Assembly (NCBI GenBank): GCA_016183425.1
Contig: JACPEP010000014.1
Span: 1 to 38,147, forward strand
Direction: 5' to 3'
Source: Chloroflexota bacterium
Lineage (GTDB): Bacteria > Chloroflexota > Dehalococcoidia > JACPEP01
DNA length: 38,147 bases
The notes beneath the pieces were generated by a model. It was not told the DNA's origin. It saw only the letters and a program-made list of their open reading frames with translations, and searched no databases. This document shows, piece by piece, positions 15,138 through 30,811 of this stretch. The position numbers and the translations under genes are program-made. Position 1 is the stretch's first letter; each line of letters starts with the position of its first letter.

Positions 15138-15165
15138 TTGACAAGGTTGGCCGTCATGCTATAAT
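15138..15165 (+). promoter_or_regulatory. Near-consensus promoter of the aromatic-acid cluster
   Basis: TTGACA (15138-15143) and TATAAT (15160-15165) are both perfect, with a 16-base spacer. The predicted leader is about 38 bases to GTG 15210. It is the strongest promoter seen in the window and the likely main entry for the catabolic genes. No clear operator dyad is visible around it. Confidence 0.75.
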
Positions 15166-15209: not shown

Positions 15210-16658
15210 GTGACACAAGAAGCAAAATTGGCCACCGAGATGGGTTACCGTGGGCTCCGAGATTGGATAGCGGGGATGGAGGGGTTAGGTGAGCTACGGA
15301 GGGTGGAGGGAGCCACCTGGCAAGAGGACATCGGCATGGCCACAGAGCTGGCGGGACGGCGAGGAGGGCCAGCCCTTCTATTCGATGATATTCCTGGTTA
15401 TTCCCCCGGCTATCGCGTTCTTTCCAACAGCTTCGGCAGTGTAAGGCGCATCGCCTATACCCTGGGTCTGCCTGTGGATGCTCCTCCGTCTCAATTGCTC
15501 CGCTTATGGCTGAATAAGCTCCGTACCAGCCCCCTAATTCCTCCCCGCTACGTTTCCCATGGCGCGGTGATGGAGGAGGTTCACATCGGCAGCGCTGTAG
15601 ACCTTCTGGAGTTTCCTAGCCCCATTTGGCACGAGGCCGACTCAGGACGCTACCTGGGCACCGGCAGCGCCGACATCACCCGGGATCCAGAGGAGGGATG
15701 GGTCAACCTGGGCACCTATCGTGTTATGCTCCACGACCGGAACCGTCTCGGCTTCTATATTTCCCCGGGTAAGCATGGCCACATCCACCGGGAGAAGTAC
15801 TTTGCCCGGGGAGAGCCCTGTCCGGTGGTGGTAGCCAGCGGCATGAACCCCCTTCTTTTTCTGGCCAGCGCCACGGAGATTCCGCCTCGAGTATGCGAGT
15901 ACGATTGGGCGGGGGGTATCCGAGGTGAACCTTTTGAGGTCATCCAAGGGCCGGTGACCGGTCTCCCCATCCCCGCCGATGCCGAGATAGCTATCGAGGG
16001 GTTTGCCTATCCTCGCGAGCGGCACCTGGAGGGGCCCTTCGGAGAGTGGACAGGGTACTATGCCTCGGGGGTTCGAGAGGAACCCGTCATCCAGGTGCAG
16101 GCGGTCTATCACCGTCGCCATCCCATCCTGGTGGGATCACCTCCCAACAAGCCTCCCGACGAGCAGGCGCGCTTTCGGGCCTTCCTGCGCTCCGCCCTTC
16201 TTCTAGAGGACCTGGAGAAGGCCGGGGTACCCGATGTGGAGGGGGTATGGTGCCACGAGGTGGGAGGCTCCCGCCTTCTTTTGCTGGTGGCCATCAAGCA
16301 ACGCTACCCGGGCCATGCCCGCCAGGCAGGCCATGTGGCTGCCATGTGTCATGCGGGAGCCTACCTGGGCCGATACGTCATCGTGGTAGACGAAGACATA
16401 GATGTCACCGACCTAGGGGAGGTGATGTGGGCGGTATGCACCCGAGCCGATCCGGCCACCGCCATTGACATAATTCATCGGGCATGGAGCGGCCCTTTGG
16501 ACCCCGCCATCGAGCCGGGGAAGGAGGGTTTCAACTCCCGAGCTATTATCGATGCCTGCCGTCCTTATGAATGGCGGGACCGCTTTCCCTCTGTATGCGC
16601 CCCCTCTCCAGAGATGAAACACAAGGCAGAGGCGAAGTGGGGACATCTTTTAAAATAA
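15210..16658 (+). CDS. UbiD-family decarboxylase, first copy
   Basis: A 482-residue prenylated-FMN-dependent (de)carboxylase. Family residues are visible: 'WVNLGTYRVM' (metal Asn and catalytic Arg), 'SPGKHG' (metal His), 'AEIAIEG' (metal Glu) and 'EGPFGEWTGYY' starting at residue 274 (catalytic acid pair). Family members act on aromatic or alpha,beta-unsaturated acids, in either direction; the substrate cannot be read. It has about half its residues in common with the copy at 24974. GTG 15210 follows GGAGATAAAGAGAGG. It opens the cluster and is followed after about 55 bases by the ring-hydrolase gene. The flavin prenyltransferase UbiX is not in the window. Confidence 0.9.
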   Translation: MTQEAKLATEMGYRGLRDWIAGMEGLGELRRVEGATWQEDIGMATELAGRRGGPALLFDDIPGYSPGYRVLSNSFGSVRRIAYTLGLPVDAPPSQLLRLWLNKLRTSPLIPPRYVSHGAVMEEVHIGSAVDLLEFPSPIWHEADSGRYLGTGSADITRDPEEGWVNLGTYRVMLHDRNRLGFYISPGKHGHIHREKYFARGEPCPVVVASGMNPLLFLASATEIPPRVCEYDWAGGIRGEPFEVIQGPVTGLPIPADAEIAIEGFAYPRERHLEGPFGEWTGYYASGVREEPVIQVQAVYHRRHPILVGSPPNKPPDEQARFRAFLRSALLLEDLEKAGVPDVEGVWCHEVGGSRLLLLVAIKQRYPGHARQAGHVAAMCHAGAYLGRYVIVVDEDIDVTDLGEVMWAVCTRADPATAIDIIHRAWSGPLDPAIEPGKEGFNSRAIIDACRPYEWRDRFPSVCAPSPEMKHKAEAKWGHLLK

Positions 16659-16715
16659 CCCCTTCTCTGTCTTGTGAGGTAACTATTGTCGTTGGTGCTG
16701 TGAAAGGAGGTGGCA

Positions 16716-17768
16716 ATGCCCAGGTTCACCGGTAGACCGGCGGCGGAGTTTGACTTCCGGGATATTCTTTACGAGAAGAAGAACTGGGTAGCCACCGTAA
16801 CTATCAACCGACCCCAGGTGTACAATTCCTACAGCACACTGGCCCTCCAAGAAATGACCCAGGCCTTTCACGATGCGGCTTGGGATGATAACGTGGCCGT
16901 GGTAGTTCTTACCGGAACTGGGGAGCGGGCCTTCTGCACCGGCGGAGATGTGAAAGAGTACGCCACCGACTACACGCAACGCCCTCGGGACTACTGGAAG
17001 TGGATGGGCATCTACGCCGAGTGTCATCAGGCTCTCCTCAACATAGGTAAGCCCACTATTGCCCGCCTCAACGGTATGGTGGTGGGTGGGGGAAACGAAT
17101 TCAACATGGCCTGTGATCTGGCCATCGCCGCCGAGCACGTGGTCATCCAGCAGGTGGGGACGAGGGTAGGTAGCGTCGCCGCCGGCGGCGCCACCCAGTG
17201 GCTCCCCATCATAGTAGGCGACCGCCGGGCCCGAGAGATCTTGTACCTCTGCGAGCCTATCCCGGCCCAGAAAGCCCTGGAATGGGGACTGATTAACCAG
17301 GTGGTTCCCTCCCTAATGGGTGAGGGAGGGGCACCTATAACCGACCCTCAACAGAAGGCGGAGGCCCTTAAAAATCTGAGCCGCGCTCGGATTGACCTGC
17401 GGCCCCTGGATGAGGCAGTAGCTATCATGGCCCATAAGCTCATCGATAAATTTCCCGAGTGCACCCGCTACACTAAACAACAGGTGAACTTTTGGAAGGA
17501 TATGGCATGGTATCAAACCATTGGCCATGCTCGAGACTGGCTCTCCGTCCATTTCTCTTCTCTGGAGCCTTATGAAGGGATGACCGCCTTCGTGGAAAAG
17601 CGGGCGGCCGGCTATCGAGAGCTGAGGGAGAAGGCGGCGGCGGGGGGCTCTAGCGAGTTCCTCTGGGGACCGTACACTCAGACCTGTCCCCAATGCGGGA
17701 GCAAGGGCATCCCCCAGGGGTTCAAATACTGCGGCTTGTGCGGGGCCAGCCTGGTGGAGGGAAAATAG
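16716..17768 (+). CDS. BamA/Oah-like cyclic-CoA ring hydrolase with C-terminal zinc ribbon
   Basis: A 350-residue crotonase-fold protein. I chose ATG 16716, six bases after AAAGGAGG, over GTG 16710, which overlaps that site. It matches what I know of 6-oxocyclohex-1-ene-1-carbonyl-CoA hydrolase, the ring-opening enzyme of anaerobic benzoyl-CoA breakdown: 'ILYEKKNWVATVTINRP..YNSY', 'ERAFCTGGDVKEY' (71-82), 'RLNGMVVGGGNEFNMACD', 'GSVAAGGATQWLP' and the family-specific end 'LDEAVAIMAHKLIDKFPEC'. Some parts recall BadI (2-ketocyclohexane-carboxyl-CoA hydrolase), so the exact ring is open. Odd: a zinc ribbon (C324, C327, C339, C342) is added at the C-terminus, which I do not know in characterised BamA. 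Dch-like follows at once. Confidence 0.8.
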   Translation: MPRFTGRPAAEFDFRDILYEKKNWVATVTINRPQVYNSYSTLALQEMTQAFHDAAWDDNVAVVVLTGTGERAFCTGGDVKEYATDYTQRPRDYWKWMGIYAECHQALLNIGKPTIARLNGMVVGGGNEFNMACDLAIAAEHVVIQQVGTRVGSVAAGGATQWLPIIVGDRRAREILYLCEPIPAQKALEWGLINQVVPSLMGEGGAPITDPQQKAEALKNLSRARIDLRPLDEAVAIMAHKLIDKFPECTRYTKQQVNFWKDMAWYQTIGHARDWLSVHFSSLEPYEGMTAFVEKRAAGYRELREKAAAGGSSEFLWGPYTQTCPQCGSKGIPQGFKYCGLCGASLVEGK

Positions 17769-17771
17769 GAG

Positions 17772-18542
17772 ATGGCCCCCTTTGAGAGCCTCCTGTACCA
17801 ACAGGGGGACCGGTATGTCAGAATAACTCTGAACCGGCCTCCCCTGAACATCCTCAATATTCAGATGATGCGAGAGCTGAGCCAGGCCCTGGCCACAGCG
17901 AGGGATGACCCACGGGTACATGCGGTAGCCATCGGCGCTCAGGGTAAGGCCTTCTGTGCGGGAGTTGACATAAAAGACCATATCGCGGAGCGGGTGCCGG
18001 AGATGATAGATGCCTTCCACGGTATCTTCCACACTCTTCGAGAGATGCCTCAGCCTACCCTGGCGTTAGTGAACGGGATGGCCCTGGGGGGTGGCTTTGA
18101 GCTGGCCCTCTTCTGCGACCTGGTTATCGCTGCCCAGGAGGCTACCTTCGGTCAGCCGGAGATAAAGGTAGGTGTCTTTCCCCCCCTGGCAGCGGTGATG
18201 CTACCTCGACTCATAGGTCGAAAAAAGGCCCTGGAGGCCGTTCTGCTGGGAGAAACCATGTCGGCCCAGGAAGCGGCCCGTCTGGGCTTGGTAAACAAGG
18301 CCGTTCCCCAGGACAGGCTGGAGGAGGAAGCCAACCTGTGGTTGAGCAAGCTCTCCGCCTTGAGCGGGACGGTGCTCCGCCTCGCTAAGAAGGCGACCTA
18401 CGCTGGGATAGACACCGATTTCGGCCCCGTGTTGGGCCAGGTGGAGGCGATTTACCTCAAGGAGCTGATGTCTACCCACGACGCCCAGGAGGGGCTCAAT
18501 GCATTTTTAGGGAAGAGAAGCCCGCTATGGGAGGATAAGTGA
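17772..18542 (+). CDS. Cyclohexa-1,5-dienecarbonyl-CoA hydratase (Dch)-like crotonase
   Basis: A 256-residue enoyl-CoA hydratase-family protein. Several segments are those of dienoyl-CoA hydratases of the benzoyl-CoA pathway: 'LNRPPLNILNIQMM' (20-33), 'FCAGVDIKDH' (61-70), 'GMALGGGFELALFCD' (102-116) and 'GQPEIKVGVFPPLA' (127-140). Dch adds water to cyclohexa-1,5-diene-1-carbonyl-CoA. It lies 3 bases after the ring-hydrolase stop, with GGAGG inside the end of that gene. The pairing of Dch-like and Oah-like genes is the best evidence for ring cleavage in this cluster. The hydroxyl-acyl-CoA oxidising step between them may be the SDR at 22221. Confidence 0.82.
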   Translation: MAPFESLLYQQGDRYVRITLNRPPLNILNIQMMRELSQALATARDDPRVHAVAIGAQGKAFCAGVDIKDHIAERVPEMIDAFHGIFHTLREMPQPTLALVNGMALGGGFELALFCDLVIAAQEATFGQPEIKVGVFPPLAAVMLPRLIGRKKALEAVLLGETMSAQEAARLGLVNKAVPQDRLEEEANLWLSKLSALSGTVLRLAKKATYAGIDTDFGPVLGQVEAIYLKELMSTHDAQEGLNAFLGKRSPLWEDK

Positions 18543-18545: not shown

Positions 18546-19214
18546 GTGGGAGTAGAGACAGTGAATAGTATCAGCTTCAGGTTAGTCCACCTTTCGGTGA
18601 GCTATAATACAGCATTATTCCCTTTTGATATCCTGGAATTGAGTAGGATGTTGCCCTCGGTAGGCTATGTTATTTTACAGGAATTACCCGTACAATTTGG
18701 CGCTCGCCTTGGAATGAGCGGAGTTTTAGCTAAGAAAGGCGATACCGCACTCTCACTCAATTCTGAGCGTTATACGGTCACGACTCAAACTCAGGAACCA
18801 AATGCAGCTTTAGAAGAATTTGAGTTCATAGAAAGATTAATAGAGGAGGAATTTGGTTTCAGGGGCGAAGAGCATGCCTCATTTTATGAGGTGATTTCAG
18901 AAGCCACTGTAAGGACAAAAAAGAACCCACTTCTGATGGTAGAAGAACACTCAAGAAGCATCAGCTTACTTGGCAGACTATCGAAAGCCCTTGGGCATCC
19001 CGTGGGGGTTTTTGGCTTTCGGTTGGTTCCTCCGGGTGCAGACCCGAACCGTCCAGATTGGTTTGACATACGAATCGAGCCTGAAGTACTCAATTGCACG
19101 AGGCGGCTATCTATCAGCATCATCTTTAGAAATCATGAAAGACCCAAAGTTCTTCAGTTTGTAAGAACATTGCCGCAAGTTTTAACAAACCTGGTTGCGG
19201 AATTGGAGGAATAG
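18546..19214 (+). CDS. Unknown protein, first gene of an AT-rich three-gene cassette
   Basis: A 222-residue protein that I do not recognise. Mixed alpha/beta, no membrane span or signal peptide. It has a hydrophobic N-terminal strand ('SISFRLVHLSVSY'), an acidic middle ('LEEFEFIERLIEEEFGF') and a 'PDWFDIRIEPEVLN' then 'ISIIFRNHERPKVLQFVRTLPQVLTNLV' end. The start is GTG 18546, or GTG 18561 just inside. Codon use and base composition are clearly more AT-rich than the flanking crotonase genes. It begins 3 bases after the Dch-like stop and is followed by another unknown gene 4 bases on. Confidence 0.65.
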   Translation: MGVETVNSISFRLVHLSVSYNTALFPFDILELSRMLPSVGYVILQELPVQFGARLGMSGVLAKKGDTALSLNSERYTVTTQTQEPNAALEEFEFIERLIEEEFGFRGEEHASFYEVISEATVRTKKNPLLMVEEHSRSISLLGRLSKALGHPVGVFGFRLVPPGADPNRPDWFDIRIEPEVLNCTRRLSISIIFRNHERPKVLQFVRTLPQVLTNLVAELEE

Positions 19215-19218
19215 CCAG

Positions 19219-19806
19219 ATGCTGAATGCTGAGACAAGAGTGATTACACCGAACCTCGCAACCTTTTGGGCAACAAAAAGCATTGAATTTGAACAGGAGG
19301 TGGAGGGTGGTGATGGTGATAGGGAGGAGTTGAAGAACGTTCCTATCATAAGCAATCGAAGCTCCGCCCCCACGATGAGGTTTCCTTCAGTATTTGAACC
19401 CGTAATGGAGAGGAATGTCTCATTTAGAATTGCATGGCCGCTGGAGACGTTACCACGTCGTCCCCGGATTTCGCCATTCAAAGCAGAGATAAAAACGGAG
19501 CAAAAAGCTAAAGCCCTTCTTACTTCAGAAGTGAAGAGGCTCATCACTCCTCTCCAGGCGATTGTCCGAACAAAGTCTCTAGAAACTGGGATTGAGATAA
19601 GATCTATAGTTCTTTCATACTTCAGAGATCCTGAGGAGGATCACGCTGAGCTTGTTTTCGAAGTTCATGTGGCGGCTACTCCAAGCCAAGGCCTTGCCTT
19701 TTGGGATTGCCTAGGGTCTGCAATAGATAGGTGGAGGTCTAGATTAACGCCAAGACTGGCTGAGATTCTTAACGATCGGGTTGGTATTCATGTAGTTTGG
19801 TCTTGA
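19219..19806 (+). CDS. Unknown protein, second gene of the AT-rich cassette
   Basis: A 195-residue protein I do not recognise. I chose ATG 19219, ten bases after GGAGG; the frame could start earlier but that would overlap the gene before. No signal peptide or membrane span is seen. Segments: 'RPRISPFKAEIKTEQKAKALLTSEV', a predicted beta-rich 'GIEIRSIVLSYFRDPEEDHAE' with 'LVFEVHVAA', and a 'FWDCLGSAIDRWRSRL' helix. It sits between the first unknown gene and the HEPN-like gene with spacings of 4 and 1 bases, so the three are one unit. Confidence 0.65.
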   Translation: MLNAETRVITPNLATFWATKSIEFEQEVEGGDGDREELKNVPIISNRSSAPTMRFPSVFEPVMERNVSFRIAWPLETLPRRPRISPFKAEIKTEQKAKALLTSEVKRLITPLQAIVRTKSLETGIEIRSIVLSYFRDPEEDHAELVFEVHVAATPSQGLAFWDCLGSAIDRWRSRLTPRLAEILNDRVGIHVVWS

Positions 19807-19807
19807 C

Positions 19808-20179
19808 ATGCCTAATAATTTTGACCCAGTTGAATTCTTAAGGGTTGCGCAGAAATTGGGGAGGGGAACTGCGGTGCAGGGAGAATTGAGAACATGCGTT
19901 AGTAGGGCCTACTATTCTCTCTTCCTTCTTTCTCGTGAACGCGTTAAAGGAGCGTTGACACCGAAACAATTGAGGAAGGACATTCACAAGAACGTTATCA
20001 GTGAGGTTAAGAGAAGACATCTAACATTAGGCAACCAGTTGGATCGACTGCGTTGGTTAAGAGTCGAGGCGGACTATCACCTAATAGCCTCACAAGGGCA
20101 GTTTATGAATTGGGACAAGAATTGGCGGGATGCGGAAGTGATAGCCACAGCTATTTTGCCCAAACTGCGACGGATTTGA
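19808..20179 (+). CDS. HEPN-domain-like protein, third gene of the AT-rich cassette
   Basis: A 123-residue all-helical protein. 'RTCVSRAYYSLFLLSRERVK' (28-47) and 'LRWLRVEADYHLI' (81-93) resemble the two core helices of HEPN proteins. R85 and H91 form an Rx5H pair that fits the Rx4-6H nuclease signature of HEPN RNases. Such proteins are often toxins or defence effectors, though some HEPN proteins lack activity. The start is ATG 19808, one base after the stop of the gene before. The two unknown proteins in front could be partners or inhibitors. Function inferred from motif only. Confidence 0.6.
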   Translation: MPNNFDPVEFLRVAQKLGRGTAVQGELRTCVSRAYYSLFLLSRERVKGALTPKQLRKDIHKNVISEVKRRHLTLGNQLDRLRWLRVEADYHLIASQGQFMNWDKNWRDAEVIATAILPKLRRI

Positions 20180-20231: not shown

Positions 20232-21026
20232 ATGACTTATGAAAGCATCCTTTTAAGCAAAGAAGACGGCATCGCCACCATTCGCTTCAACCGGCCGGCG
20301 ACGCTGAACTCTTTGACCTTTCAGACCTATCGGGAACTGGAACGGGCGACTTTGGAGGTGCGGGACGACAAAGACGTCCGGGTGCTTGTCATCACCGGCC
20401 AGGGTCGAGGCTTTTGCTCTGGGGGAGACGTGAATGAGATCATCGGCCAGCTCTTCGGAAAGAGCTCGGAGGAGGTGCTGGAGTTCACCCGTCTCACCTG
20501 TCGAGTAACCAAGAACCTGGTAGAGCTAGGAAAGCCTTCTATCGCCGCTATTAACGGCATCGCTGCCGGGGCGGGGTCTGTCATCGCCTCCGCCTGCGAT
20601 ATACGCATTGCGGCTCAAAGCGCCCGTTTCGCCTTTCTCTTCGTGAGGGTGGGACTCTCGGGGGCAGACATGGGCATCGCCTGGCTTCTTCCTCGCCTGG
20701 TGGGGACGGGCAAGGCCCGGGAGCTTTTGCTCACGGGCGACATCCTCGGCGCCCAGGAGGCGGAGCGGATAGGACTGGTGAACCGGGTGGTCGCCGATGG
20801 GGAGCTGGAGACAGTGGCCGTGGAGCTGGCCCGCAAGCTGGCCAAGGGGCCGCCCATCGCCCTCAAGGCCACCAAGGAGCTCCTGGACAAGGAGCTAACC
20901 ATAGATTTTGCCTCTGCCCTGGAGCTAGACGCCTACTCCCAGGCTGTCTGTCTCCAGACTGAGGACCACAAAGAGGGCTATCGAGCCTTCCTGGAGAAGC
21001 GAGAGCCCCAGTTCAAAGGGATATAG
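20232..21026 (+). CDS. Enoyl-CoA hydratase/isomerase family protein
   Basis: A 264-residue crotonase. 'IRFNRPATLNSL', 'GRGFCSGGDVNEI' (first oxyanion loop), 'AAINGIAAGAGSVIASACD' (second loop) and 'FLFVRVGLSGADMGIAWLLPRLVG' place it in a branch common in aromatic and dicarboxylic acid clusters. It probably hydrates an open-chain enoyl-CoA after ring cleavage; that is inference. The start ATG 20232 follows AAGGGAG. It resumes the GC-rich catabolic series after the AT-rich cassette. Confidence 0.85.
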   Translation: MTYESILLSKEDGIATIRFNRPATLNSLTFQTYRELERATLEVRDDKDVRVLVITGQGRGFCSGGDVNEIIGQLFGKSSEEVLEFTRLTCRVTKNLVELGKPSIAAINGIAAGAGSVIASACDIRIAAQSARFAFLFVRVGLSGADMGIAWLLPRLVGTGKARELLLTGDILGAQEAERIGLVNRVVADGELETVAVELARKLAKGPPIALKATKELLDKELTIDFASALELDAYSQAVCLQTEDHKEGYRAFLEKREPQFKGI

Positions 21027-21053: not shown

Positions 21054-22217
21054 ATGGTGGCCGTGGCACTGCAATCCAGCGCTGACGTCTTTCTGTCGTC
21101 CCATCTGGTGGAGATGAGGGCTCGGCTGCGCCGTCTGATGGACGAGTCTGCCGCTCTCCACGCTGAGGAAGAGGAGAACGTGGATGGAGCAGCGCAGAAG
21201 TGGCTAGGGCTACTGGCGCGAGAGGGAGCTCTACGTCTCGCCGTTCCACGGCGTTATGGGGGAGAATACGAGGAAGTGTGTGCCCTGCCCCTGTGCCTGG
21301 CCAGAGAAGAGTTGGCCCGGAGCTCGTCGCTAGCGGACACCATGCTGGCTATGCAAGGATTGGGGAGCTACCCCATAACCCTGGCCGGTAGCGAGGAGCA
21401 GAAGGAGCGCTATCTGCCCCCGGTGGCCCGAGGCGAGAAGATAGCCACCTTCGCCATCACGGAGCCGGACGCAGGCTCTGACGTGGCCAGCCTAACCACC
21501 AGGGCGGAGGGTAGGGCGGGGAGATATGTGCTTAACGGCGTCAAGCGGTTCATCTCTAACGCTGGCCTCGCCCATACCTATGTTGTTTTTGCCAAAACCG
21601 ATCCCGGTGTTGGGACGCGGGGTATCTCTGCTTTTGTTGTGGAGGCGGGGACGCCGGGGTTGAAGGTGCGACGGATGGACTTGATAGCTCCTCATCCCAT
21701 AGGGGAGGTGGTTTTTGAGAACTGCGCCATTCCAGAGGCGGCTCGGCTGGGGACCGAGGGAGATGGTTTCGCTATCGCCACGGGTACTCTGGCCCTGTTT
21801 CGGGTGACGGTGGGGGCGGCGGCGGTGGGGATGGCCCAACGGGCCCTGGAGGAGGCGCTGGCCTACGCCAGAAAACGCATCCAGTTCGGGCGGCCCATCG
21901 CTCAGTTCCAGGCAATCCGCTTCATGCTGGCGGACATGGCTACCGAGCTTCAGGCAGCCCGTCTTCTGGTGTATCAAGGGGCATGGAGCCGGGATAATGG
22001 CCAAGGGAAGCCTATAGAGTCCTCCATGGCCAAACTCTATGCCACGGAGATGGCCCAGCGGGTCATCGACCAGGCCCTTCAGATCCATGGCGGTATGGGG
22101 GTGGTCAAGGGGACGGCCGTGGAAAGGCTATATCGGGAGGTGAGGGTGTTGCGCATCTACGAGGGAACCTCGGAGATACAGAAGCTCATCATCTCCAATG
22201 AGCTGCTCAGGGAGTGA
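21054..22217 (+). CDS. Acyl-CoA dehydrogenase
   Basis: A 387-residue FAD-dependent acyl-CoA dehydrogenase. It has the full family order: N-terminal helical domain; 'FAITEPDAGSDVASLTTRA' (FAD and substrate contact); 'GVKRFISNAGLA'; 'ARKRIQFGRPIAQFQAI'; 'QIHGGMGV'; and the catalytic glutamate in 'LRIYEGTSEIQKLII' near residue 371. It oxidises acyl-CoA to enoyl-CoA and passes electrons to an ETF, not seen here. Likely substrates are the ring-opened dicarboxylyl-CoA or a cyclic acyl-CoA. It is 27 bases after the crotonase and 3 before the SDR. Confidence 0.92.
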   Translation: MVAVALQSSADVFLSSHLVEMRARLRRLMDESAALHAEEEENVDGAAQKWLGLLAREGALRLAVPRRYGGEYEEVCALPLCLAREELARSSSLADTMLAMQGLGSYPITLAGSEEQKERYLPPVARGEKIATFAITEPDAGSDVASLTTRAEGRAGRYVLNGVKRFISNAGLAHTYVVFAKTDPGVGTRGISAFVVEAGTPGLKVRRMDLIAPHPIGEVVFENCAIPEAARLGTEGDGFAIATGTLALFRVTVGAAAVGMAQRALEEALAYARKRIQFGRPIAQFQAIRFMLADMATELQAARLLVYQGAWSRDNGQGKPIESSMAKLYATEMAQRVIDQALQIHGGMGVVKGTAVERLYREVRVLRIYEGTSEIQKLIISNELLRE

Positions 22218-22220: not shown

Positions 22221-22982
22221 TTGAGGCTAGCGGGTAAGATAGTCATCGTCACCGGTAGCAGCCGAGGCATCGGCAAGGCCATTGCCCTGGCCATGGCTCA
22301 AGAGGGGGCACAGGTGGTGGTAGCCGCCCGCACAGAGCAGGAGTCGGCAGGCCCTCTACCAGGCACTATCTATAACGTGGCCGAGGAGATCCACGCCTTG
22401 GGAGGGCATGCCCTGCCTATAAAAGTGGACGTCACCGACGAAGACCAGGTAACGGCTATGGTAAGGCGCATCCTGGAGGAGTGGGGCCGTATCCACGTGT
22501 TGGTGAACAACGCCGGCATCCTCATCCAGGGGCGAGTGGTGGACGTCCCGCTACGGCGCTGGGATCTGGTGATGCGAGTGAACCTGCGGGGCACCTTTTT
22601 GTGCACCAAGGCCGTTTTGCCTCACATGATGGAGCGGCGGGAGGGGAGCATCATCAACATCTCCTCTTGGGTGGGACGACAGGCCAGCCCGGGCTCTGTA
22701 GCCTACAGCGTCTCCAAGGCGGGCATCGAGATGTTCACTGCTGGGCTGGCTGAGGAGGTCAGGGAATACGATATCGCCGTCAACTGCCTCTCTCCCTATC
22801 GCATCGTGGATACGGAGGGTGCCCGCTACCTTCATCCGGGCGCCGACCGTTCTCGATGGGAGCCGCCGGAGCTCATGGCTGAGGCGGCCGTCTTCCTGGC
22901 GACGCGGACGGCGGCCACCCTGACCGGCAAGTCCATCGTCAGCCAGGAGTGGAAGGCATTACAGGCAGGTATTGCCCATTAA
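22221..22982 (+). CDS. Short-chain dehydrogenase/reductase
   Basis: A 253-residue NAD(P)-dependent SDR with TGSSRGIG (about 11-18), NNAG, 'GSIINISSWVG' and the catalytic 'YSVSK'. The start is TTG 22221. In the benzoyl-CoA pathway the hydroxy-ring intermediate is usually oxidised by a zinc alcohol dehydrogenase (Had/BamQ). None is present here, so this SDR is a reasonable stand-in between the Dch-like and Oah-like steps. A beta-hydroxyacyl-CoA dehydrogenase is the other option. Confidence 0.88.
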   Translation: MRLAGKIVIVTGSSRGIGKAIALAMAQEGAQVVVAARTEQESAGPLPGTIYNVAEEIHALGGHALPIKVDVTDEDQVTAMVRRILEEWGRIHVLVNNAGILIQGRVVDVPLRRWDLVMRVNLRGTFLCTKAVLPHMMERREGSIINISSWVGRQASPGSVAYSVSKAGIEMFTAGLAEEVREYDIAVNCLSPYRIVDTEGARYLHPGADRSRWEPPELMAEAAVFLATRTAATLTGKSIVSQEWKALQAGIAH

Positions 22983-22995: not shown

Positions 22996-24717
22996 ATGGT
23001 CAAAGCTGTGTCTCGTAAGATAACCAGCCTGATAAACGAGGTGATTGATGCCGATGTCCTGGTGGTGGGCGGAGGTTTGGCGGGGTGCATGGCCGCCATC
23101 AAGGCCAAAGACCAGGGGGTCAAAGTGGTCTTGGTGGACAAAGGCTATATCTCTCGCAGTGGCCAAAGTCCCTTCGCTGCCGGCTCTATAAACATCTTTA
23201 CCCCAGAGGATGACCTCTCGTTGTGGCTGCGGGAGATCGTGGAGCGGGGAGAGTACCTGAACGACCAGGAGTGGGTCAAGCTGCAACTGGAGAATATCTA
23301 CTCCCTGACCACCGAGCTAGATGCCTGGGGCAAAGAGTACGGCCTTACTGTTTTGGAGCGAGATGAGAAGGGGAGCCTTCTTAGGCGTAAGGCCAGGGGC
23401 AATATCAACACTCTTACCTCCGTCATCAATGCCCTGCCCATGATGGATACCCTGAGGCGGCGGCTGGTGAAGCTGGAGGTGCCCCTCTATGAGCGTATTA
23501 TGGTCACCGACCTGCTGACAGAAGATGGACGGGTGGTGGGGGCCCTGGGCCTCAACTATCGGGACGGTAAGCTGTATCTCTTTCGGGCCAAGGCAACTAT
23601 TCTGGCGGCGGCGGGGTGTGGCTTCAAGTCTTTCTTCATCGGCCATCGTAACCTGACGGGCGAGGGGCAAGTAATGGCCTATCAGCTGGGGGCGGCGCTG
23701 CGCAACCTGGACCAGGCCATGTCCAACACCACGGCGCGAGAGGTGGATATTCACGGCCTAAGCTTCATGGTGGGCTTCGGGGGCCGCTTCCTGAACGGCC
23801 GGGGAGAGGAGTTCATGTGGCGCTACGACCCGGAGGTGGGAAATCGCGCCCGGCTCACCCGCCTTACCGTGGCCATGGCCAGGGAGGTGGCAGAGGGGCG
23901 GGGGCCCATTTACATGGACCTGACCCAGGTGCCCACCCATGACCAGACACTGCTGAAGCAAATCGTACCTGAGGGTTTCCGCTCACTGGAGAGTGTGGGA
24001 TTGAAACCCTTCCGCGAGAAGATCGAATGGATGCCCGCTTTCGAGGGCACCCTGGCCCACGGCGGCGGCGTCCACATCGACCTGGGGTGCGCCACCGGCG
24101 TCCCGGGCCTCTTTGCCGCCGGAGACAATACCTGCACACCAGAGCACGGCACCTGGTCCATCACCGGACTTAACCTCTCCTTCTGCATCGTCTCTGGTAA
24201 GGTGGCTGCCGATAGCGCCGTCCCGGAGGCCTCCAGAGCCAGTCTTTCTGCTTTGGGGAACCTGGATGTAGCGCCCCTGGTAGACGCGCTCTTGGCACCG
24301 CTGGATCGAGAGGGGGGGTCTAACCCCGAAGAGGTCATAGCTCGAATCCAGCAAACCATAATCCCTTATCCCGTCGCCTACCTGAGGCGAGAGGAAACGT
24401 TGCAAAACGCCCTCGCCCGCATTCAAAACACTCGCCAGTGGGAGATACCCCGACTTCGGGCGCGCAATCTGCGGGAGCTGGTCAAAGCCAGAGAGGTGAG
24501 AAACATGGCCCTCATCGCCGAGGCCATAGTCCAGAGCGCCCTCTACCGACAGGAGAGCCGCGGCTTCCACTACCGGGAGGACTATCCGCTGACGGACAAC
24601 GACCAATGGCTGAAGTGGATCATGGTGAAAGAGGAGAGAGGGGAGATGAAGGTTCGGGGGGAGGTCTTCCCCACCCCTTACATCCAGCCCCCCACTGGCA
24701 AATACCCACCGAGGTGA
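22996..24717 (+). CDS. Fumarate reductase/AprA-type flavoprotein
   Basis: A 573-residue FAD enzyme of the fumarate reductase / succinate dehydrogenase / adenylylsulfate reductase alpha family. I chose ATG 22996 after GAGG; an earlier TTG (22972) overlaps the SDR. FAD-binding 'DVLVVGGGLAGCMAAIKA' is near residue 20. 'LAHGGGVHIDLGCATGVPGLF' and 'AGDNTCTPEHGTWSITG' are the family's flavin-capping segments. A helical tail ends in a Pro-rich strand. The next gene is a 2x[4Fe-4S] ferredoxin, as in AprAB. It may reduce or oxidise a pathway enoyl-CoA or acid; sulfur chemistry is unlikely in this context. Substrate unknown. Confidence 0.85.
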   Translation: MVKAVSRKITSLINEVIDADVLVVGGGLAGCMAAIKAKDQGVKVVLVDKGYISRSGQSPFAAGSINIFTPEDDLSLWLREIVERGEYLNDQEWVKLQLENIYSLTTELDAWGKEYGLTVLERDEKGSLLRRKARGNINTLTSVINALPMMDTLRRRLVKLEVPLYERIMVTDLLTEDGRVVGALGLNYRDGKLYLFRAKATILAAAGCGFKSFFIGHRNLTGEGQVMAYQLGAALRNLDQAMSNTTAREVDIHGLSFMVGFGGRFLNGRGEEFMWRYDPEVGNRARLTRLTVAMAREVAEGRGPIYMDLTQVPTHDQTLLKQIVPEGFRSLESVGLKPFREKIEWMPAFEGTLAHGGGVHIDLGCATGVPGLFAAGDNTCTPEHGTWSITGLNLSFCIVSGKVAADSAVPEASRASLSALGNLDVAPLVDALLAPLDREGGSNPEEVIARIQQTIIPYPVAYLRREETLQNALARIQNTRQWEIPRLRARNLRELVKAREVRNMALIAEAIVQSALYRQESRGFHYREDYPLTDNDQWLKWIMVKEERGEMKVRGEVFPTPYIQPPTGKYPPR

Positions 24718-24721
24718 TGTA

Positions 24722-24937
24722 ATGCCTATACTAGGAATCGATCGGGAAAAGTGCATCAACTGCGACAAGTGCTATCAGATCTGCCCCATGGATGTCTTTG
24801 GCAAAATAGGGCGACTGGTCTACGTAGCCCATCAGGAAGACTGCATGTGCTGTTTCCTGTGCGACATAGACTGTCCGGTGACCGGTGCCATCATCATTGA
24901 CGGTCGTCGGAGCCGTCCTATACCTTTCCCATATTGA
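24722..24937 (+). CDS. 2x[4Fe-4S] ferredoxin, partner of the flavoprotein
   Basis: A 71-residue ferredoxin with two complete cluster motifs, 'CINCDKCYQICP' and 'CMCCFLCDIDCP', close to the AprB type. The start ATG 24722 overlaps a GAGGTGATGTA leader that runs through the end of the flavoprotein gene. Spacing is four bases, so coupling is likely. It should carry electrons between the flavoprotein and a low-potential carrier. Confidence 0.9.
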   Translation: MPILGIDREKCINCDKCYQICPMDVFGKIGRLVYVAHQEDCMCCFLCDIDCPVTGAIIIDGRRSRPIPFPY

Positions 24938-24973
24938 ACCGGTTCGGGTTAGCGGTAGAAAAGGAGGTTGTTC

Positions 24974-26416
24974 GTGCCCAACAAAGACCTGCGGGAATGG
25001 ATGATTAAGGCAGAAGAACTAGGTGAGGTGCAGCGGGTGGAGGGAGCTCACTGGGATATAGAACTGGGGGCCATCGTGGACCTCTTTCAGAGGAAAACAG
25101 GCCGCCCCGCTCTCCTCTTCAACAACATCCCAGGATACCCCAAGAACTATCGCATCTTATCCAACACCCTTATGTCTCTGGGGCGTATCGCCCTTACCCT
25201 GGAGATGCCCACGGAAACGAAAGCGGTGGACATGGTAAAGGCGTGGCGAGAGCTGTGGCCAAAGCTGGAGCGAATCCCACCCCAGGAGGTGAGCGATGGG
25301 CCGGTTTTGGAGAACATAAACACCGGCGATGAGATCAATCTGCTCAAATTCCCGGTGCCCAAGTGGCACGAGCTAGACGGGGGGCGCTATATCGGCACCG
25401 GCTGCTTAGTTATCATGCGCGACCCGGACACGGGATGGGTCAACCTGGGCACCTATCGGGTCATGGTCCATGATGAAAAGAACGCTGCCCTCTACATCTC
25501 ACCGGGCAAGCACGGCCGCATCATAAGGGAAAAGTACTGGAAGCGGGGCCAGGCCTGTCCCGTAGCGATAGCCTGCGGTCAGGACCCTCTCCTCTACTTC
25601 CTGAGCTCTGTAGAGATACCCTATGGGTGGAGCGAGTATGATGTTGCTGGGGCCATCCGTAAGGAGCCGGTGGAGGTCATCAAAGGCCCCGCCACCGGGC
25701 TGCCTATCCCCGCTTCTGCCGAGATCGTCTTCGAAGGGGAGGTTCGAGACGATGACCGATTGGATGAGGGACCCTTCGGAGAGTGGACAGGGTACTATGG
25801 CAGCGGCATTCGTCCCGAGCCGGTTATAAGGGTAAAAACCGTTCTCCACCGCAACGACCCCATTCTTTTGGGGGCGCCCCCCCAGGTGCCTCCTTGCGAT
25901 GTTACCTTTCCTCGGGGGTTGCTACGCTCCGGTCTCATTTGGGACGAGCTGGAGAAGGCGGGGGTTCCGGGCATCCAGGGGGTGTGGGCCCACGAGGCGG
26001 GGGGCAGCCGTCTTATGCTCATTATCGCCATCAAGCAGCTTTATGGTGGCCACTCCAAGCAGGCCGGCCTCATCGCCTCTCAGTGCCACGCCGGGGCCTA
26101 CGCCAACCGCCTGGTGGTGGTGGTGGACGAGGACATCGATCCGTCCGATACCAATCAGGTGCTGTGGGCCATCTGTACCCGAAGCAACCCTGAGGAGGAC
26201 GTGGAGATTATCCGTAAGTGCTGGAGCACCCCCTTGGATCCCATGGCCTATCCTCCAGAGCTTCGCATATTTAACTCCCGAATGGTCATCGACGCCTGTC
26301 GCCCCTGGGAGCGACTGGAGACCTTTCCCCCTGTGGCGACTATCAGTCAAGAGTTGCGCCAGCAGATCGAGGCTAAGTGGGCCTATCTTTTCGACGCTCC
26401 CTACTTTCGGGGTTAG
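24974..26416 (+). CDS. UbiD-family decarboxylase, second copy
   Basis: A 480-residue prenylated-FMN enzyme, paralogue of the 15210 gene. GTG 24974 lies six bases after AAGGAGG; the frame opens at TTG 24968. Motifs are intact: 'WVNLGTYRVMVHD', 'SPGKHG', 'EIVFEG' and 'EGPFGEWTGYY' from residue 265. The catalytic stretches are also nearly identical in DNA to the first copy. The two may form a hetero-oligomer, or act on two related acids or in two directions. It is followed by the cytochrome gene after 62 bases. Confidence 0.9.
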   Translation: MPNKDLREWMIKAEELGEVQRVEGAHWDIELGAIVDLFQRKTGRPALLFNNIPGYPKNYRILSNTLMSLGRIALTLEMPTETKAVDMVKAWRELWPKLERIPPQEVSDGPVLENINTGDEINLLKFPVPKWHELDGGRYIGTGCLVIMRDPDTGWVNLGTYRVMVHDEKNAALYISPGKHGRIIREKYWKRGQACPVAIACGQDPLLYFLSSVEIPYGWSEYDVAGAIRKEPVEVIKGPATGLPIPASAEIVFEGEVRDDDRLDEGPFGEWTGYYGSGIRPEPVIRVKTVLHRNDPILLGAPPQVPPCDVTFPRGLLRSGLIWDELEKAGVPGIQGVWAHEAGGSRLMLIIAIKQLYGGHSKQAGLIASQCHAGAYANRLVVVVDEDIDPSDTNQVLWAICTRSNPEEDVEIIRKCWSTPLDPMAYPPELRIFNSRMVIDACRPWERLETFPPVATISQELRQQIEAKWAYLFDAPYFRG

Positions 26417-26478
26417 TGCCGGCAAAATACTACGGAAATAGAAGAGATGAAGGAAAAATTGAAAGGAGAGATGTTGTA

Positions 26479-26949
26479 ATGGTACATAGAATTCTCCTCG
26501 CTTTTGGGGCAGTGGGTCTGGCAGCTTTGGTAGCTCTGTTCGGGATGGCCTGCGGCGCTGCCGCGCCGACGCCAACTAAAGCCCCCACAGGGGCGACTCC
26601 CGCCCCCGGCGCCGCCGTCCCCGCTCCTTACAAAGGCAAGACCAACCCTCTCGCCGTCACCGATCAGGCGGCGGTGAGCGCGGGCAAGAAAATCTATGAT
26701 GCTAGCTGCACCTCCTGCCACGGCGAAAAGGGCGATGGCAAGGGGCTGGTAGGGGCTTCCCTGAAGCCACCCCCCGCCGACTTTACCTCGGCAGCCTCGC
26801 AGCAGGCCCTGGACAAAGAGCAGGACCGCCTTTTGTGGCGAGTCAGCGAGGGAAAAGAGGGCACCGCCATGCCCGCTTTCAAGAGTCAACTGAAGGAAAA
26901 CGAGATATGGCAGGTTCTCACCTACATTAAGAGTCTGACCAAAAAATAG
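26479..26949 (+). CDS. Membrane-anchored monohaem cytochrome c
   Basis: A 156-residue class I cytochrome c. A hydrophobic N-terminus ('LLAFGAVGLAALVALFGMAC') suggests a lipoprotein or uncleaved anchor; the lipobox GMAC is imperfect. A Thr/Pro/Ala-rich linker (about 28-52) follows, then the haem motif CTSCH (77-81) and the probable distal Met in 'GTAMPAFKSQL'. ATG 26479 follows AAAGGAGAG. It would act outside the membrane as an electron carrier. Its place between two UbiD genes is unusual and suggests respiratory coupling of the pathway, not direct chemistry with UbiD, which is cytoplasmic. Confidence 0.88.
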   Translation: MVHRILLAFGAVGLAALVALFGMACGAAAPTPTKAPTGATPAPGAAVPAPYKGKTNPLAVTDQAAVSAGKKIYDASCTSCHGEKGDGKGLVGASLKPPPADFTSAASQQALDKEQDRLLWRVSEGKEGTAMPAFKSQLKENEIWQVLTYIKSLTKK

Positions 26950-27074
26950 CGGCTTTTCAGCGCACCAACTCTTGACGTTAAAGACACCAATTTGTTAATC
27001 TTATCACACAACTTGGGTTAGAAAATAATGCTTTTTGCCTTTGGTTGTTTTAGTGGGCAAGGAGGTTGAGAAAG

Positions 27075-28619
27075 ATGGCCATTGTCGTCAAGAAGGATGT
27101 AACTAGTCTCAGATCTGCCTTAGACTACATCAGAGAGAGGGATGAACTCCTGGAGACCGATGAAGAGGTTGATCCGGCCTTAGAGGTGGCAGGACTTCAG
27201 AAGGCCTTAGAGGGCGGGCCAGCCATCCTCTTCAATAACGTGAAGGGCTACCCGGGGAAAAGGATTGCGACCAACATCTTCGCCTCGGAGGAGCGCCTTT
27301 CCCAAATGTTCGACGTGGAGGACCCCAGGAAGTTCAAGTTCAAAGCTCTAGAGGCTCTCTATCACCCCTTACCTCCCCGGGAGGTGTCGGATGCGCCGAG
27401 TCAAGAGGTAGTGATCACCAAAGACATCGATGTGTGGCCAGTGGTACCTATGATCTCTCACACTCCTCAAGACCCGGGGCGTACCCTGGGGGGGGGCAAC
27501 ACCCTAATAACGGGCAAGCATTTCTGGGGTGGCGCCCACGTCAGCTTCAACCGAATGAACTTCCGGGGCAAGGACTACTCCAGCTTCCAGGTTTCTCCCG
27601 GTTCCCACACGGATATGGTGGTCACCGCCTGGTACCGCAAAGGGCCTATCCCCATGACCATCAACATGGGCGTGCCGCCGGCGGTTACCCTCATGGCCGG
27701 CTCCGGCTTCATGTATATGGTTCTGCCCAAGGGTTGTGATGAGCTGGCAGTAGCCGGAGGTATTCAAGGCTCTCCCATCCGTATCGTCAAGGCCAAGACC
27801 CAGGATGCCTATTCCCTGGCCGATGCCGAGTACGTCATCGAAGGCTATCTGGATACCACCCAACACGTGTGGGAGAGCCCGGAGGCAGAAAAGGACGGCC
27901 AGCAAGGGGTTCATCCCTTCCACCCCGAGTGGTCAGGGTACATGGGGAAGGCTTACCGCACTTACAAGTTCCAGGTGACGGCGATAACCCACCGCAAGGA
28001 TAACCCCATCTACTATCCCCTCATCGTTCACAGCTACGACGACCACAACATCGACTGCAAGATGAGGGAGGCTGCTTTTATGGAGATAGGGGAGAGGATT
28101 AGACCGGGGTTCGTGGTGGACACCCATATTCCCCTCGGTCTCACCGACTGGGGAGGGGTTATCTTCCAGGTGAAGAAGCGGCTCAAGCGGGACGATGGCT
28201 ACCAGAAGAACATCCTTACCACTACCATTGCTGCTTCCCAGGGGATGCGTCTGGCCATCGCCGTGGACGAGGACATCGATATCTATACTGCCGAGGATGT
28301 TCTGTGGGCACTGACCACCCGGGTTGATCCCCAGACGGACATTCAAATAGTAGCTCCCGGTGGGGTGGGGCAGACCTTCCAGCCGGCGGAGCGCAGCGCG
28401 GCGGCGCCCGGCGCCCAGTGGGTGCGCTCCGAATCCAAGTATCGGGGCGGGATGGCCATCGATGCCACCGTGCCCTTCGAGTATCAATGGGCCTTCGAGC
28501 GTGCTCAGTATCCCATCGACAGGGTTGACCTGAAGCAATGGTTCTCGTCCCAGGACATTGCCAAGGCCCTTGCCTCCCAATCGGACTATGCCAGCAAGCT
28601 GGCCAAAAGGGGGATATAG
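27075..28619 (+). CDS. UbiD-family decarboxylase, third and divergent copy
   Basis: A 514-residue UbiD-family protein, longer than and unlike the other two copies. ATG 27075 is nine bases after AAGGAGG. It keeps 'PAILFNNVKGYPGKR', a 'SPGSHTD' metal-His segment, 'AEYVIEGY' and the C-terminal 'VDEDIDIYTAEDVLWALTTR'. The 'EGPFGE' acid pair is replaced by 'HPFHPEW', so the first catalytic Glu is lost and the second kept. Divergent members of this kind act on substrates such as aryl-CoA or phenylphosphate. The CoA-transferase gene that follows makes an aroyl-CoA such as phthaloyl-CoA thinkable, but only as inference. Confidence 0.85.
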   Translation: MAIVVKKDVTSLRSALDYIRERDELLETDEEVDPALEVAGLQKALEGGPAILFNNVKGYPGKRIATNIFASEERLSQMFDVEDPRKFKFKALEALYHPLPPREVSDAPSQEVVITKDIDVWPVVPMISHTPQDPGRTLGGGNTLITGKHFWGGAHVSFNRMNFRGKDYSSFQVSPGSHTDMVVTAWYRKGPIPMTINMGVPPAVTLMAGSGFMYMVLPKGCDELAVAGGIQGSPIRIVKAKTQDAYSLADAEYVIEGYLDTTQHVWESPEAEKDGQQGVHPFHPEWSGYMGKAYRTYKFQVTAITHRKDNPIYYPLIVHSYDDHNIDCKMREAAFMEIGERIRPGFVVDTHIPLGLTDWGGVIFQVKKRLKRDDGYQKNILTTTIAASQGMRLAIAVDEDIDIYTAEDVLWALTTRVDPQTDIQIVAPGGVGQTFQPAERSAAAPGAQWVRSESKYRGGMAIDATVPFEYQWAFERAQYPIDRVDLKQWFSSQDIAKALASQSDYASKLAKRGI

Positions 28620-28671
28620 GGCGTCCCCCGACGCTTCAAAAACGGGTCGAAAGGCGAAATAAGTGTGATAG

Positions 28672-28710
28672 CAAAGATAGGGACAGGGTTTTGCCCTGTC
28701 CCTATCTTTG
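28672..28710. repeat. Perfect 17-bp-arm palindrome between UbiD-3 and the CoA-transferase
   Basis: The arms CAAAGATAGGGACAGGG / CCCTGTCCCTATCTTTG flank TTTTG. No T run follows, so it is not a standard intrinsic terminator on the plus strand. In RNA it would be a very stable hairpin just ahead of a translated gene (start 28738). It may attenuate transcription, protect the message end or be a dispersed palindrome like those at the left end. Confidence 0.7.
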
Positions 28711-28737
28711 AGCTTGGGGGTGGGAAAGGAGGTTGGT

Positions 28738-30006
28738 ATGACTGATTCAGGGCGGGAAAAAGAGGGGCTGCTGGCTCCCTACCGGGCGTTAGACCTGACC
28801 AATGAGCTGGGATTCTTGTGTGGCAAGATCCTGGGCGACCTGGGGGCCGATGTTATAAAGGTAGAGCCTCCCGGCGGAGACCCGGCCCGCCGCATGGGCC
28901 CCTTTTACAAAGACATCCCCCACCCCGAAAAGAGCTTGTATTGGTTTTCCTACAATAACAACAAACGGGGCATTACGCTGAACCTGGAGACGGCCACAGG
29001 CCAGGAGCTTTTCAAGGGCTTGGCAAAAACGGCCCACTTCGTCATCGAATCTTTTCCACCGGGGTACATGGATGGGCTGGGGCTGGGCTACCAGACGCTG
29101 CGGCAAATCAACCCCCAACTGGTGATGGCCTCCATAACGCCTTATGGCCAGACGGGGCCCTATAGCCATTATCGAGCCTCGGACATCGAGCTTATGGCCA
29201 CCAGCGGCGCTATGTCCCTGGCCGGGGACCCGGACCGCCCTCCGGTGCGCGTCACCGTGCCTCAATCATATATGTGGACGGGCATGCACGCCGCCATGGG
29301 CTGCCTTATGGCCCACTACTATCGGGCGGTCAGTGGGAAGGGGCAGCACGTAGACGTATCGGGCCAGGACAGCCTGCTGCCCGTTTTAGCCCATGCCCCC
29401 ACCTTCTGGGATGTGCTGGGGGAGAACCCGCGGCGGGCCGGCCCCTACCTCACTGGTCGCAGCGTTAAAGGGGCACGGATGCGGGTTTTTTTTCCCTGTC
29501 AGGACGGTTATCTCAACTTCATCGTCTACGGTGGCCCGGCGGGCATCAAGACCAACCAGCAGCTCACCGAGTGGATGGACGGTCGGGGCATGGCCTCGGA
29601 GTATCTCAAAACAAAAGAATGGAACCAGTTCGACATCGCCACGGTGAGCCAGGAGGAGATCGACCACATCGAGGCACCCGCCGCCAAGTTTTTCGAATCT
29701 ATCACTAAAGAAGAATTTTTCCAGGAGGTGGTGAAGCGGGACATGCTGGGCTATCCCGTGGCCACCGCCAAGGAGGTCATGGAGGATGCCCAGCTCAAAG
29801 CCCGCGGCTTCTGGCAAAAGGTAGAGCACCCGGAGTTGGGGGAATCTATAACCTATCCTGGTGCCTTCGCTCAGCTCTCCCAGGGCCGCGTTGAAATCCG
29901 ACGCCGCGCCCCTCTCATCGGTGAGCACAACGAGGAGATCTACTGCCAGGAGCTGGGATTGTCCCGCCAGGAGCTGGTGATGCTGAGGCAGGCAGGGATT
30001 ATCTAA
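28738..30006 (+). CDS. CaiB/BaiF class III CoA-transferase, first subunit
   Basis: A 422-residue family III CoA-transferase. ATG 28738 follows AAAGGAGG. 'LGDLGADVIKVEPPGGDPAR', 'NNNKRGITLNLETATGQELF', 'MASITPYGQTGPYSHYRASD' and 'GQHVDVSGQDSLLP' are family segments. The Asp of 'GQDSL' is in the place of the nucleophile that holds the acyl anhydride. The enzyme moves CoA between carboxylic acids and would activate the pathway's substrate. The second transferase at 31984 has Glu at this place, so the two may form one enzyme, as in benzylsuccinate and phthalate CoA-transferases. Confidence 0.9.
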   Translation: MTDSGREKEGLLAPYRALDLTNELGFLCGKILGDLGADVIKVEPPGGDPARRMGPFYKDIPHPEKSLYWFSYNNNKRGITLNLETATGQELFKGLAKTAHFVIESFPPGYMDGLGLGYQTLRQINPQLVMASITPYGQTGPYSHYRASDIELMATSGAMSLAGDPDRPPVRVTVPQSYMWTGMHAAMGCLMAHYYRAVSGKGQHVDVSGQDSLLPVLAHAPTFWDVLGENPRRAGPYLTGRSVKGARMRVFFPCQDGYLNFIVYGGPAGIKTNQQLTEWMDGRGMASEYLKTKEWNQFDIATVSQEEIDHIEAPAAKFFESITKEEFFQEVVKRDMLGYPVATAKEVMEDAQLKARGFWQKVEHPELGESITYPGAFAQLSQGRVEIRRRAPLIGEHNEEIYCQELGLSRQELVMLRQAGII

Positions 30007-30085
30007 GAAAGGATTATATGTCATTTTTGTCCTTATTTTTTCTGTTAGGTGAACTCGGAGTACACTTATTCCCCTATTATCTGAG

Positions 30086-30700
30086 ATGGCGTCCATGTGT
30101 CTACCTATAGAGGTAAATATAGTGCGAACCCATAATTTGATTGATCAATTTCTTACCAAAATTGCTAACATAGGTGGAATCAACCTCGTGAAGATAGCAT
30201 TTTGCCAAGGCCACAGCGATCTCTCGGCCTTTCGTGGTATCGGCACTTGTGAACTAAAGCAAGTAGCACGCCCCGACGACATAAATCAACTTTCGGAACA
30301 CTATTTAGTGTGGTATAAGCCAAATGAAGTTAAGCTTCCTGGTTGGTATGTTGATGGCTCGGTAAACTATCGCCTATGTGAGTACGTGGATGGACTTGTG
30401 AATGAATCAATCAAGATGACTGATGAAGTGTCATCCCTTGTTCAATCGTTCAAGAAAGGGCTGGAGAATCCAGTTGAGATTCTTGTTGCATTTGATACCT
30501 CTCATAATATGGCTGTTATTGTTGACGGGACCAAACGTGCCCTGGCACTTCACTATCTTAAGCATAAGGAACCAGAAGTTTTGGAACAACTAATCAGTTC
30601 TAGGCATCCTATCCACATTTTGCAATTGAACTCGACTTACTGTAAAATTCTGTTCCCCTGTGATTTTTTAAAGCTATGTCTTAGAACGCAAAAGGACTAA
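30086..30700 (+). CDS. Unknown protein in the second AT-rich patch
   Basis: A 204-residue protein, not recognised with certainty. The middle is acidic and helical. 'MAVIVDGTKRALALHYLKH' recalls the 'VDGNHRxxA' strand-helix of ParB/sulfiredoxin-like folds, which bind nucleotides. Cysteines are scattered without a CxxC pair. Base composition is much more AT-rich than the CoA-transferase genes around it. The start ATG 30086 has no good ribosome site. It may be a transferred accessory gene; function unknown. Confidence 0.55.
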   Translation: MASMCLPIEVNIVRTHNLIDQFLTKIANIGGINLVKIAFCQGHSDLSAFRGIGTCELKQVARPDDINQLSEHYLVWYKPNEVKLPGWYVDGSVNYRLCEYVDGLVNESIKMTDEVSSLVQSFKKGLENPVEILVAFDTSHNMAVIVDGTKRALALHYLKHKEPEVLEQLISSRHPIHILQLNSTYCKILFPCDFLKLCLRTQKD

Positions 30701-30776
30701 TAGATGTACTCCCTCATAATCATCGCCATACTGTCGCCACAGCAGGCAACAGCGGATATGCGGATATATAGTTCGC

Positions 30777-30811
30777 TTCCCTTGCCCAAATGCCTTGTGC
30801 ACTTCGCAAAG
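30777..30811 (+). repeat. Diverged direct repeat, copy 1
   Basis: The core CCAAATGC, then CTTG and GCACTTCGCAAAG are shared with 31294-31333, with small insertions between. The stretch 30701-30924 holds no gene I can support; a 60-codon frame there lacks a ribosome site and overlaps this repeat. Confidence 0.45.

Follow-up and report, generated by a model that had tools for sequence, protein, structure and literature searches.

Which reaction might a flavoprotein of the AprA/FrdA type carry out together with a small ferredoxin if both are encoded among genes for the degradation of aromatic acids? This question is raised by a stretch of 38,147 nucleotides (the window) on contig C38 of a Chloroflexota bacterium of the class Dehalococcoidia, whose genome of 2.7 Mb is 95% complete. 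We refer to the flavoprotein subunit as Fp and to the ferredoxin as Fd (Table 1).

The Fp-Fd pair and its gene neighborhood

The original prediction described an FAD subunit with a small 2x[4Fe-4S] ferredoxin four bases behind it, which is confirmed by the open reading frames, the Pfam matches and the junction sequence (TGA-tgta-ATG). Fp matches FAD_binding_2 (PF00890; 149 bits) and Succ_DH_flav_C (PF02910; 72 bits) and starts with an ATG preceded by an AGGT-type ribosome site; an alternative, longer TTG start is possible at 22972. Fd matches Fer4_21 (38 bits) and contains the motif CxxCxxCxxxCP twice. The closest relatives of Fp are found in G164 (Chloroflexota, 63% identity) and PH28_bin88 (Bacillota, 60%), followed by G075 (47%) and two Actinomycetes bins (44%). 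Since the first two are similar over the full length and likewise have an adjoining ferredoxin, the pair is far beyond chance.

Fp and Fd are part of a single tight, operon-like run of genes on the plus strand that extends from UbiD1 (15210) to UbiD2 (24968), with a putative promoter about 45 bp upstream of UbiD1. The Oah-like protein in this run is the sole clear Oah candidate of the genome. Pfam and NCBIfam searches yielded no match for the three consecutive ORFs downstream of the Dch-like gene; by eye, the third of them (123 aa) appears HEPN-like. Judged from the sequence, UbiD2 more likely starts with the GTG at 24974 behind AAAGGAGG than with the TTG at 24968. The closest solved UbiD is PDB entry 7pda.

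Several other genes of the window lie outside this run. A 1344-aa ORF at 11081-15115 matches MATE/Wzx flippases in its C-terminal part and, weakly, glycosyltransferases in its N-terminal part. A lipoprotein-type cytochrome c (26377-26949) is located between UbiD2 and UbiD3, and downstream of the divergent UbiD3 lie two CoA-transferase genes of the CaiB type (27066-33204), a layout that recalls phthalate CoA-transferase/decarboxylase clusters. Genes resembling those of 4-hydroxybenzoyl-CoA reductase occupy 33211-36374 on the minus strand and score below cut-off.

Table 1. Positions of Fp, Fd and surrounding features in the window.
Feature	Position	Strand	Basis and remarks
Putative sigma-70 promoter	15138..15165	+	consensus match only, 12/12, TG before second hexamer
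UbiD1, UbiD-family (de)carboxylase	15210..16658	+	family match; opens the run
Oah-like ring-opening hydrolase	16710..17768	+	210.8 bits vs cut-off 464.45
Dch-like (dienoyl-CoA hydratase-like)	17772..18542	+	187.8 bits vs cut-off 292.5
Three consecutive ORFs (222, 203, 123 aa)	18546-20179	+	between Dch-like gene and enoyl-CoA hydratase gene
Enoyl-CoA hydratase	20232..21026	+	PRK08258 family, above cut-off
Acyl-CoA dehydrogenase	21054..22217	+	AcrC and cyclohexane-1-carbonyl-CoA dehydrogenase models below cut-off
Short-chain dehydrogenase (SDR)	22221..22982	+	ends 13 bp 5' of Fp
Fp, flavoprotein subunit, complex-II-type FAD protein (573 aa)	22996..24717	+	Pfam, NCBIfam, trees, model
Fd, 2x[4Fe-4S] ferredoxin (71 aa)	24722..24937	+	Pfam and motifs; C-terminal tail ending PIPFPY
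UbiD2, UbiD-family (de)carboxylase	24968..26416	+	30 bp 3' of Fd
UbiD3, third UbiD-family protein	27066..28619	+	family match; different branch by comparison with other UbiDs

Relation of Fp to AprA, PAPS reductase and complex II

Two quick maximum-likelihood trees place Fp in a clade of 54 (SH-aLRT 99) and 65 sequences (SH-aLRT 98), respectively, which in both trees is sister to AprA and PAPS reductase (PAPSR) and stands apart from Sdh/Frd and NadB. The original prediction called the pair AprAB-like, and AprA/PAPS reductase is indeed the nearest characterised branch in the trees. An AlphaFold model of Fp that is usable overall (pLDDT 77.6, pTM 0.82, with the FAD and pocket loops below 50) finds its best Foldseek match in the PDB in the alpha subunit of PAPS reductase (8a8o_A), followed by SdhA/FrdA, with which Fp shares the fold (TM about 0.8) and both Pfam domains. 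Like AprAB and PAPS reductase, the pair combines an FAD subunit with a 2x[4Fe-4S] partner, and the RSG motif is retained. AprB has a long tail and a cluster insert, both of which are absent from the 71-aa Fd. Among NCBIfam models, Fp scores best against TfrA of the CoM/CoB fumarate reductase, yet far below the cut-off (236.5 vs 718 bits), and Fd is not TfrB-like. The scores against the aprA (95.2 vs 641.75 bits) and nadB models (164 vs 452.75 bits) are also below their cut-offs, and the NCBIfam search did not assign Fp to any equivalog.

We aligned Fp with FrdA, SdhA and NadB from E. coli, AprA from Archaeoglobus and PAPS reductase from Methanothermococcus; identity in the pocket is about 23-30%, so that the alignment may slip by a few columns. 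The positions which we take to be catalytic or involved in covalent FAD binding in FrdA (H44, H232, T244, E245, R287, H355, and R390) are G56, N244, L255, S256, L287, L353, and S388 in Fp. Hence, both the covalent-FAD His and the catalytic residues Arg287, His355, and Arg390 are lost. FrdA, SdhA, and NadB agree with each other at the tested dicarboxylate columns, whereas Fp does not; Arg290, His351, Arg386, and Thr259/Glu260 of NadB are all changed. Moreover, the partner of Fp is a small ferredoxin unlike SdhB with its [2Fe-2S], [4Fe-4S] and [3Fe-4S] clusters, and the run contains neither an SdhB/FrdB-type iron-sulfur subunit nor membrane anchors. With every tested residue lost, a fumarate, succinate, or aspartate enzyme is ruled out.

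A similar picture emerges for the presumed APS-binding residues of AprA. W234, R265, R317, and H398 are replaced by I215, A241, L290, and L353 in Fp, and only N74 is kept (N66). A search for ATP sulfurylase (Sat, PF01747) in the 95% complete genome was negative. The loss of APS residues, the separate clade and the lack of ATP sulfurylase rule out a true AprAB, in line with the original prediction, which had also reported that sulfur genes are missing nearby; this holds for the annotated genes of the window.

A small 2x[4Fe-4S] ferredoxin gene is found within 1.5 kb on the same strand in at least 28 of 60 clade members, often overlapping, which is a lower bound because some contigs end close to Fp. 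In many of these ferredoxins, the C-terminal tail terminates with P-x-P-Y or with a Trp variant of it. An adjacent ferredoxin of its own is thus a frequent but not universal feature of the Fp clade. We found no clade member with a known substrate, and the open-access literature searched contains no description of an Fp-Fd pair together with UbiD. Pairs of an FAD protein and a ferredoxin also lie beside ABC transporters on plasmids of Paracoccus and Rhizobium (L149, L151), one of these transporters being of the sulfonate type. On an Ilyobacter plasmid (L148, 4227-9234), three related FAD proteins are encoded in tandem, preceded by a ferredoxin gene and followed by Tat genes. At a Bradyrhizobium locus, the ferredoxin alone is found among the listed genes.

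The sister position to AprA and PAPS reductase invites the question of whether Fp might act on organosulfur compounds or sulfur oxyanions. In the 65-sequence tree, relatives from Rhizobium NXC24 and a Paracoccus aminophilus plasmid fall inside the wider Fp clade; the former is encoded near SsuA/PhnD and SfnB genes and the latter beside an ABC transporter. Because the Rhizobium pair is close to sulfonate-type genes, some clade members may have sulfur compounds as substrates and possibly form a sulfur branch in cultured bacteria. For the pair studied here, we consider a sulfur substrate quite unlikely, as the four APS-binding positions are changed, ATP sulfurylase and neighboring sulfur genes are missing, and such a function would leave the exact co-occurrence with UbiD expansion described below unexplained.

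Association of the pair with UbiD

The arrangement Fp-Fd-UbiD is not confined to the window and occurs twice on one contig of G040. In PH28_bin88, which has two UbiDs, genes for UbiD, UbiX, and a tricarboxylate-type transporter are located upstream of Fp-Fd, and the UbiD is 62% identical to UbiD2. A genome of the same phylum with just two UbiDs (G742) encodes UbiD 4 bp from Fp. Furthermore, UbiD lies near Fp in G164 and on either side of it in G075. A UbiD gene is present on the same strand at a gap of at most 700 bp in 7 of 59 clade members, compared to 0.41 expected from random placement, a null that ignores the general clustering of catabolic genes (Poisson tail 3e-7). For a wider distance of 3 kb, a hand estimate yields only weak enrichment in UbiD-dense genomes. 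Hence, our argument rests on the tight same-strand test and on the phylogenetic profile, which is the stronger test of the link.

For this profile, we considered 197 Dehalococcoidia genomes and scored Fp as present if a clade member was found at E <= 1e-70; UbiD counts from 14 upward are read as at least 14. The eight genomes with Fp, which span six families, are exactly the eight with at least eight UbiD genes, a number that none of the other 189 reaches (Fisher p 2e-14, uncorrected for relatedness, and with an E-value limit and a threshold of eight UbiDs that were not preregistered). The next-highest genomes encode 7, 4, and 3 UbiDs and no Fp. Outside the Dehalococcoidia the rule is looser, as G042 encodes Fp without a UbiD match and G160 and G122 encode Fp with one UbiD each. 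One Chloroflexota genome of 6.5 Mb (G043, identical to G836; loci L012, L017, and L057-L083) contains 89 UbiD genes; it also encodes more than 30 paralogues of the Fp type, and its contamination is listed as 7%.

Such co-occurrence and adjacency might also be expected of a UbiD helper, i.e., an anaerobic oxidant that activates UbiD by taking electrons from reduced prenylated FMN (prFMN). How anaerobes oxidise prFMN is, to our knowledge, not settled, which leaves room for such a factor. However, more than 30 diverse paralogues in one genome and the variability of the pocket suggest enzymes acting on substrates, Dehalococcoidia genomes with one to seven UbiDs manage without Fp, and G042 has Fp though no UbiD was detected. 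We therefore regard a role of the pair in UbiD activation as very improbable.

In 57 neighborhoods, solute-binding proteins (18/57) are found along with UbiD (8/57) and AMP-forming CoA ligases (8/57), with the names of the neighbor clusters assigned by eye except for UbiD and one ligase. Many Fp paralogues lack a nearby UbiD or Fd. FAD proteins outside the clade can also be close to UbiD (L048, 935 bp; L096, 918 bp), and UbiD adjacency is thus not unique to the Fp clade. The UbiD partners of the pair are 28-62% identical to UbiD2, a diversity too great for one-to-one co-evolution of UbiD and Fp. At locus L147 (5079-12864), in a genome of the phylum to which PH28_bin88 belongs, genes for Fd, Fp, UbiD, and another FAD protein stand in a row with those for a molybdopterin oxidoreductase and its iron-sulfur subunit as well as for an OYE-type enzyme.

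Co-occurrence with UbiD or Oah genes had been proposed as a check on the pair, and the two partners differ in this respect. The UbiD part stands, both in the tight adjacency and in the profile, whereas no Oah-like or Dch-like gene was found at the other Fp loci examined, which rules out that the pair travels with Oah/Dch. What is conserved is thus the link between UbiD and Fp(-Fd), to which the window adds the benzoyl-CoA genes as local neighbors.

Ring reduction and the reaction of the pair

The shared run with Oah-like and Dch-like genes could indicate that the pair replaces a missing aromatic ring reductase, as was originally suggested. However, bzdN (493.5 vs 453.8 bits), bzdO (670.1 vs 448.6 bits), and bzdQ (428.6 vs 380.2 bits) all exceed their cut-offs on the same contig and lie, together with a second activase-type subunit, at 76.8-81.0 kb of C38, about 39 kb downstream of the window. 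As these genes encode a class I benzoyl-CoA reductase of the bzd type, no ring reductase is missing, and the other Fp loci examined do not include Oah/Dch. A stand-in role is hence largely refuted for benzoyl-CoA and, overall, hardly credible. The benzoyl-CoA route looks present, with Fp-Fd as an addition to it. The pair resembles the class I reductase in its ferredoxin-linked redox chemistry, its setting in anaerobic aromatic degradation and its occurrence in the same genome, but the protein families are unrelated and the genes lie elsewhere on the contig. The bzd genes are followed by an 832-aa protein with NuoG/hydrogenase-type iron-sulfur and GltD-type domains (L103, 2850-9840; C38, 76.8-83.8 kb), which, judging by these domains, is a possible NAD(P)H:ferredoxin electron supplier.

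We propose, at about an even chance, that the pair is an FAD:ferredoxin oxidoreductase of a substrate-diversified kind, whose target is a C=C or ring bond in an aromatic or cyclic acid that UbiD enzymes handle. The proposal draws on fold and clade, the linkage of the Fd gene, the UbiD statistics, and the neighboring genes. While the analysis establishes the gene pair, its fold and clade, the loss of residues, and the tie to UbiD, as well as a canonical ring reductase elsewhere in the genome, we infer from these that Fp and Fd form a complex and that FAD is bound non-covalently, and likewise the type of substrate, the reaction, and its direction, with genomic context pointing to an aromatic or cyclic acid as the substrate of Fp. 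Fp and Fd would form a cytoplasmic two-subunit oxidoreductase, in which Fp provides non-covalently bound FAD and the substrate pocket. Fd would dock on Fp, its two [4Fe-4S] clusters wiring the FAD to the low-potential ferredoxin pool. The Fp clade has lost the dicarboxylate residues of FrdA/SdhA/NadB as well as the APS residues of AprA, and its pocket differs among paralogues. Most likely, Fp would transfer a hydride (plus a proton) to or from its FAD, the other party being a C=C or ring bond in a compound that derives from an aromatic or cyclic carboxylic acid and is also handled by a UbiD-family (de)carboxylase. In the window, this UbiD/Fp/Fd module is placed in an operon-like run with Oah and Dch, genes of the lower benzoyl-CoA pathway.

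Reduction with electrons from ferredoxin seems more likely to us than oxidation, although sequence cannot reveal the direction. In the oxidative case, Fp would desaturate or aromatise a cyclic acid that the pathway produces and pass low-potential electrons via ferredoxin to the ATP-dependent benzoyl-CoA reductase. Aromatisation yields enough energy to reduce ferredoxin, the degradative run that holds the pair also includes genes for an acyl-CoA dehydrogenase and an SDR, and the genome encodes a ferredoxin-consuming class I benzoyl-CoA reductase. This reductase could, however, receive its electrons from the adjacent NuoG/GltD-like protein, and we consider the oxidative direction rather unlikely.

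Returning to the reductive reading, a ferredoxin-dependent resorcinol reductase is mentioned in the part of the literature consulted (PMC10470551). Ferredoxin-linked reduction of an aromatic ring via its keto tautomer would be in keeping with an FAD/Fd enzyme linked to UbiD, but a sequence for this reductase was not found, and the comparison serves as a lead only. The 'Magic' cluster of benzene activation is ruled out as a match, as its flavoproteins are GlcDE-like and belong to another family than Fp (PMC13101534). A bolder version of the proposal, which we put forward as improbable, sees in the Fp clade a large enzyme family that is ferredoxin-linked and ATP-independent and that reduces or dearomatises phenols or aromatic acids in their free form, e.g., via keto tautomers. 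Its diversification would have kept pace with that of UbiD, with every UbiD/Fp/Fd set making another recalcitrant compound accessible to anaerobic degradation.

The pair probably represents an unrecognised redox step in the anaerobic breakdown of aromatic compounds. For uncultured Chloroflexota, which encode as many as 89 UbiD genes, Fp offers a second handle on what these organisms degrade, as its family is present only in the UbiD-rich members of the class. If reduction of aromatic or vinylogous acids by ferredoxin is indeed what the pair catalyses, a new biochemical step would be added to the anaerobic turnover of aromatic carbon, and the pair might then supply a candidate gene for those ferredoxin-dependent ring reductions that are known solely from old enzymology.
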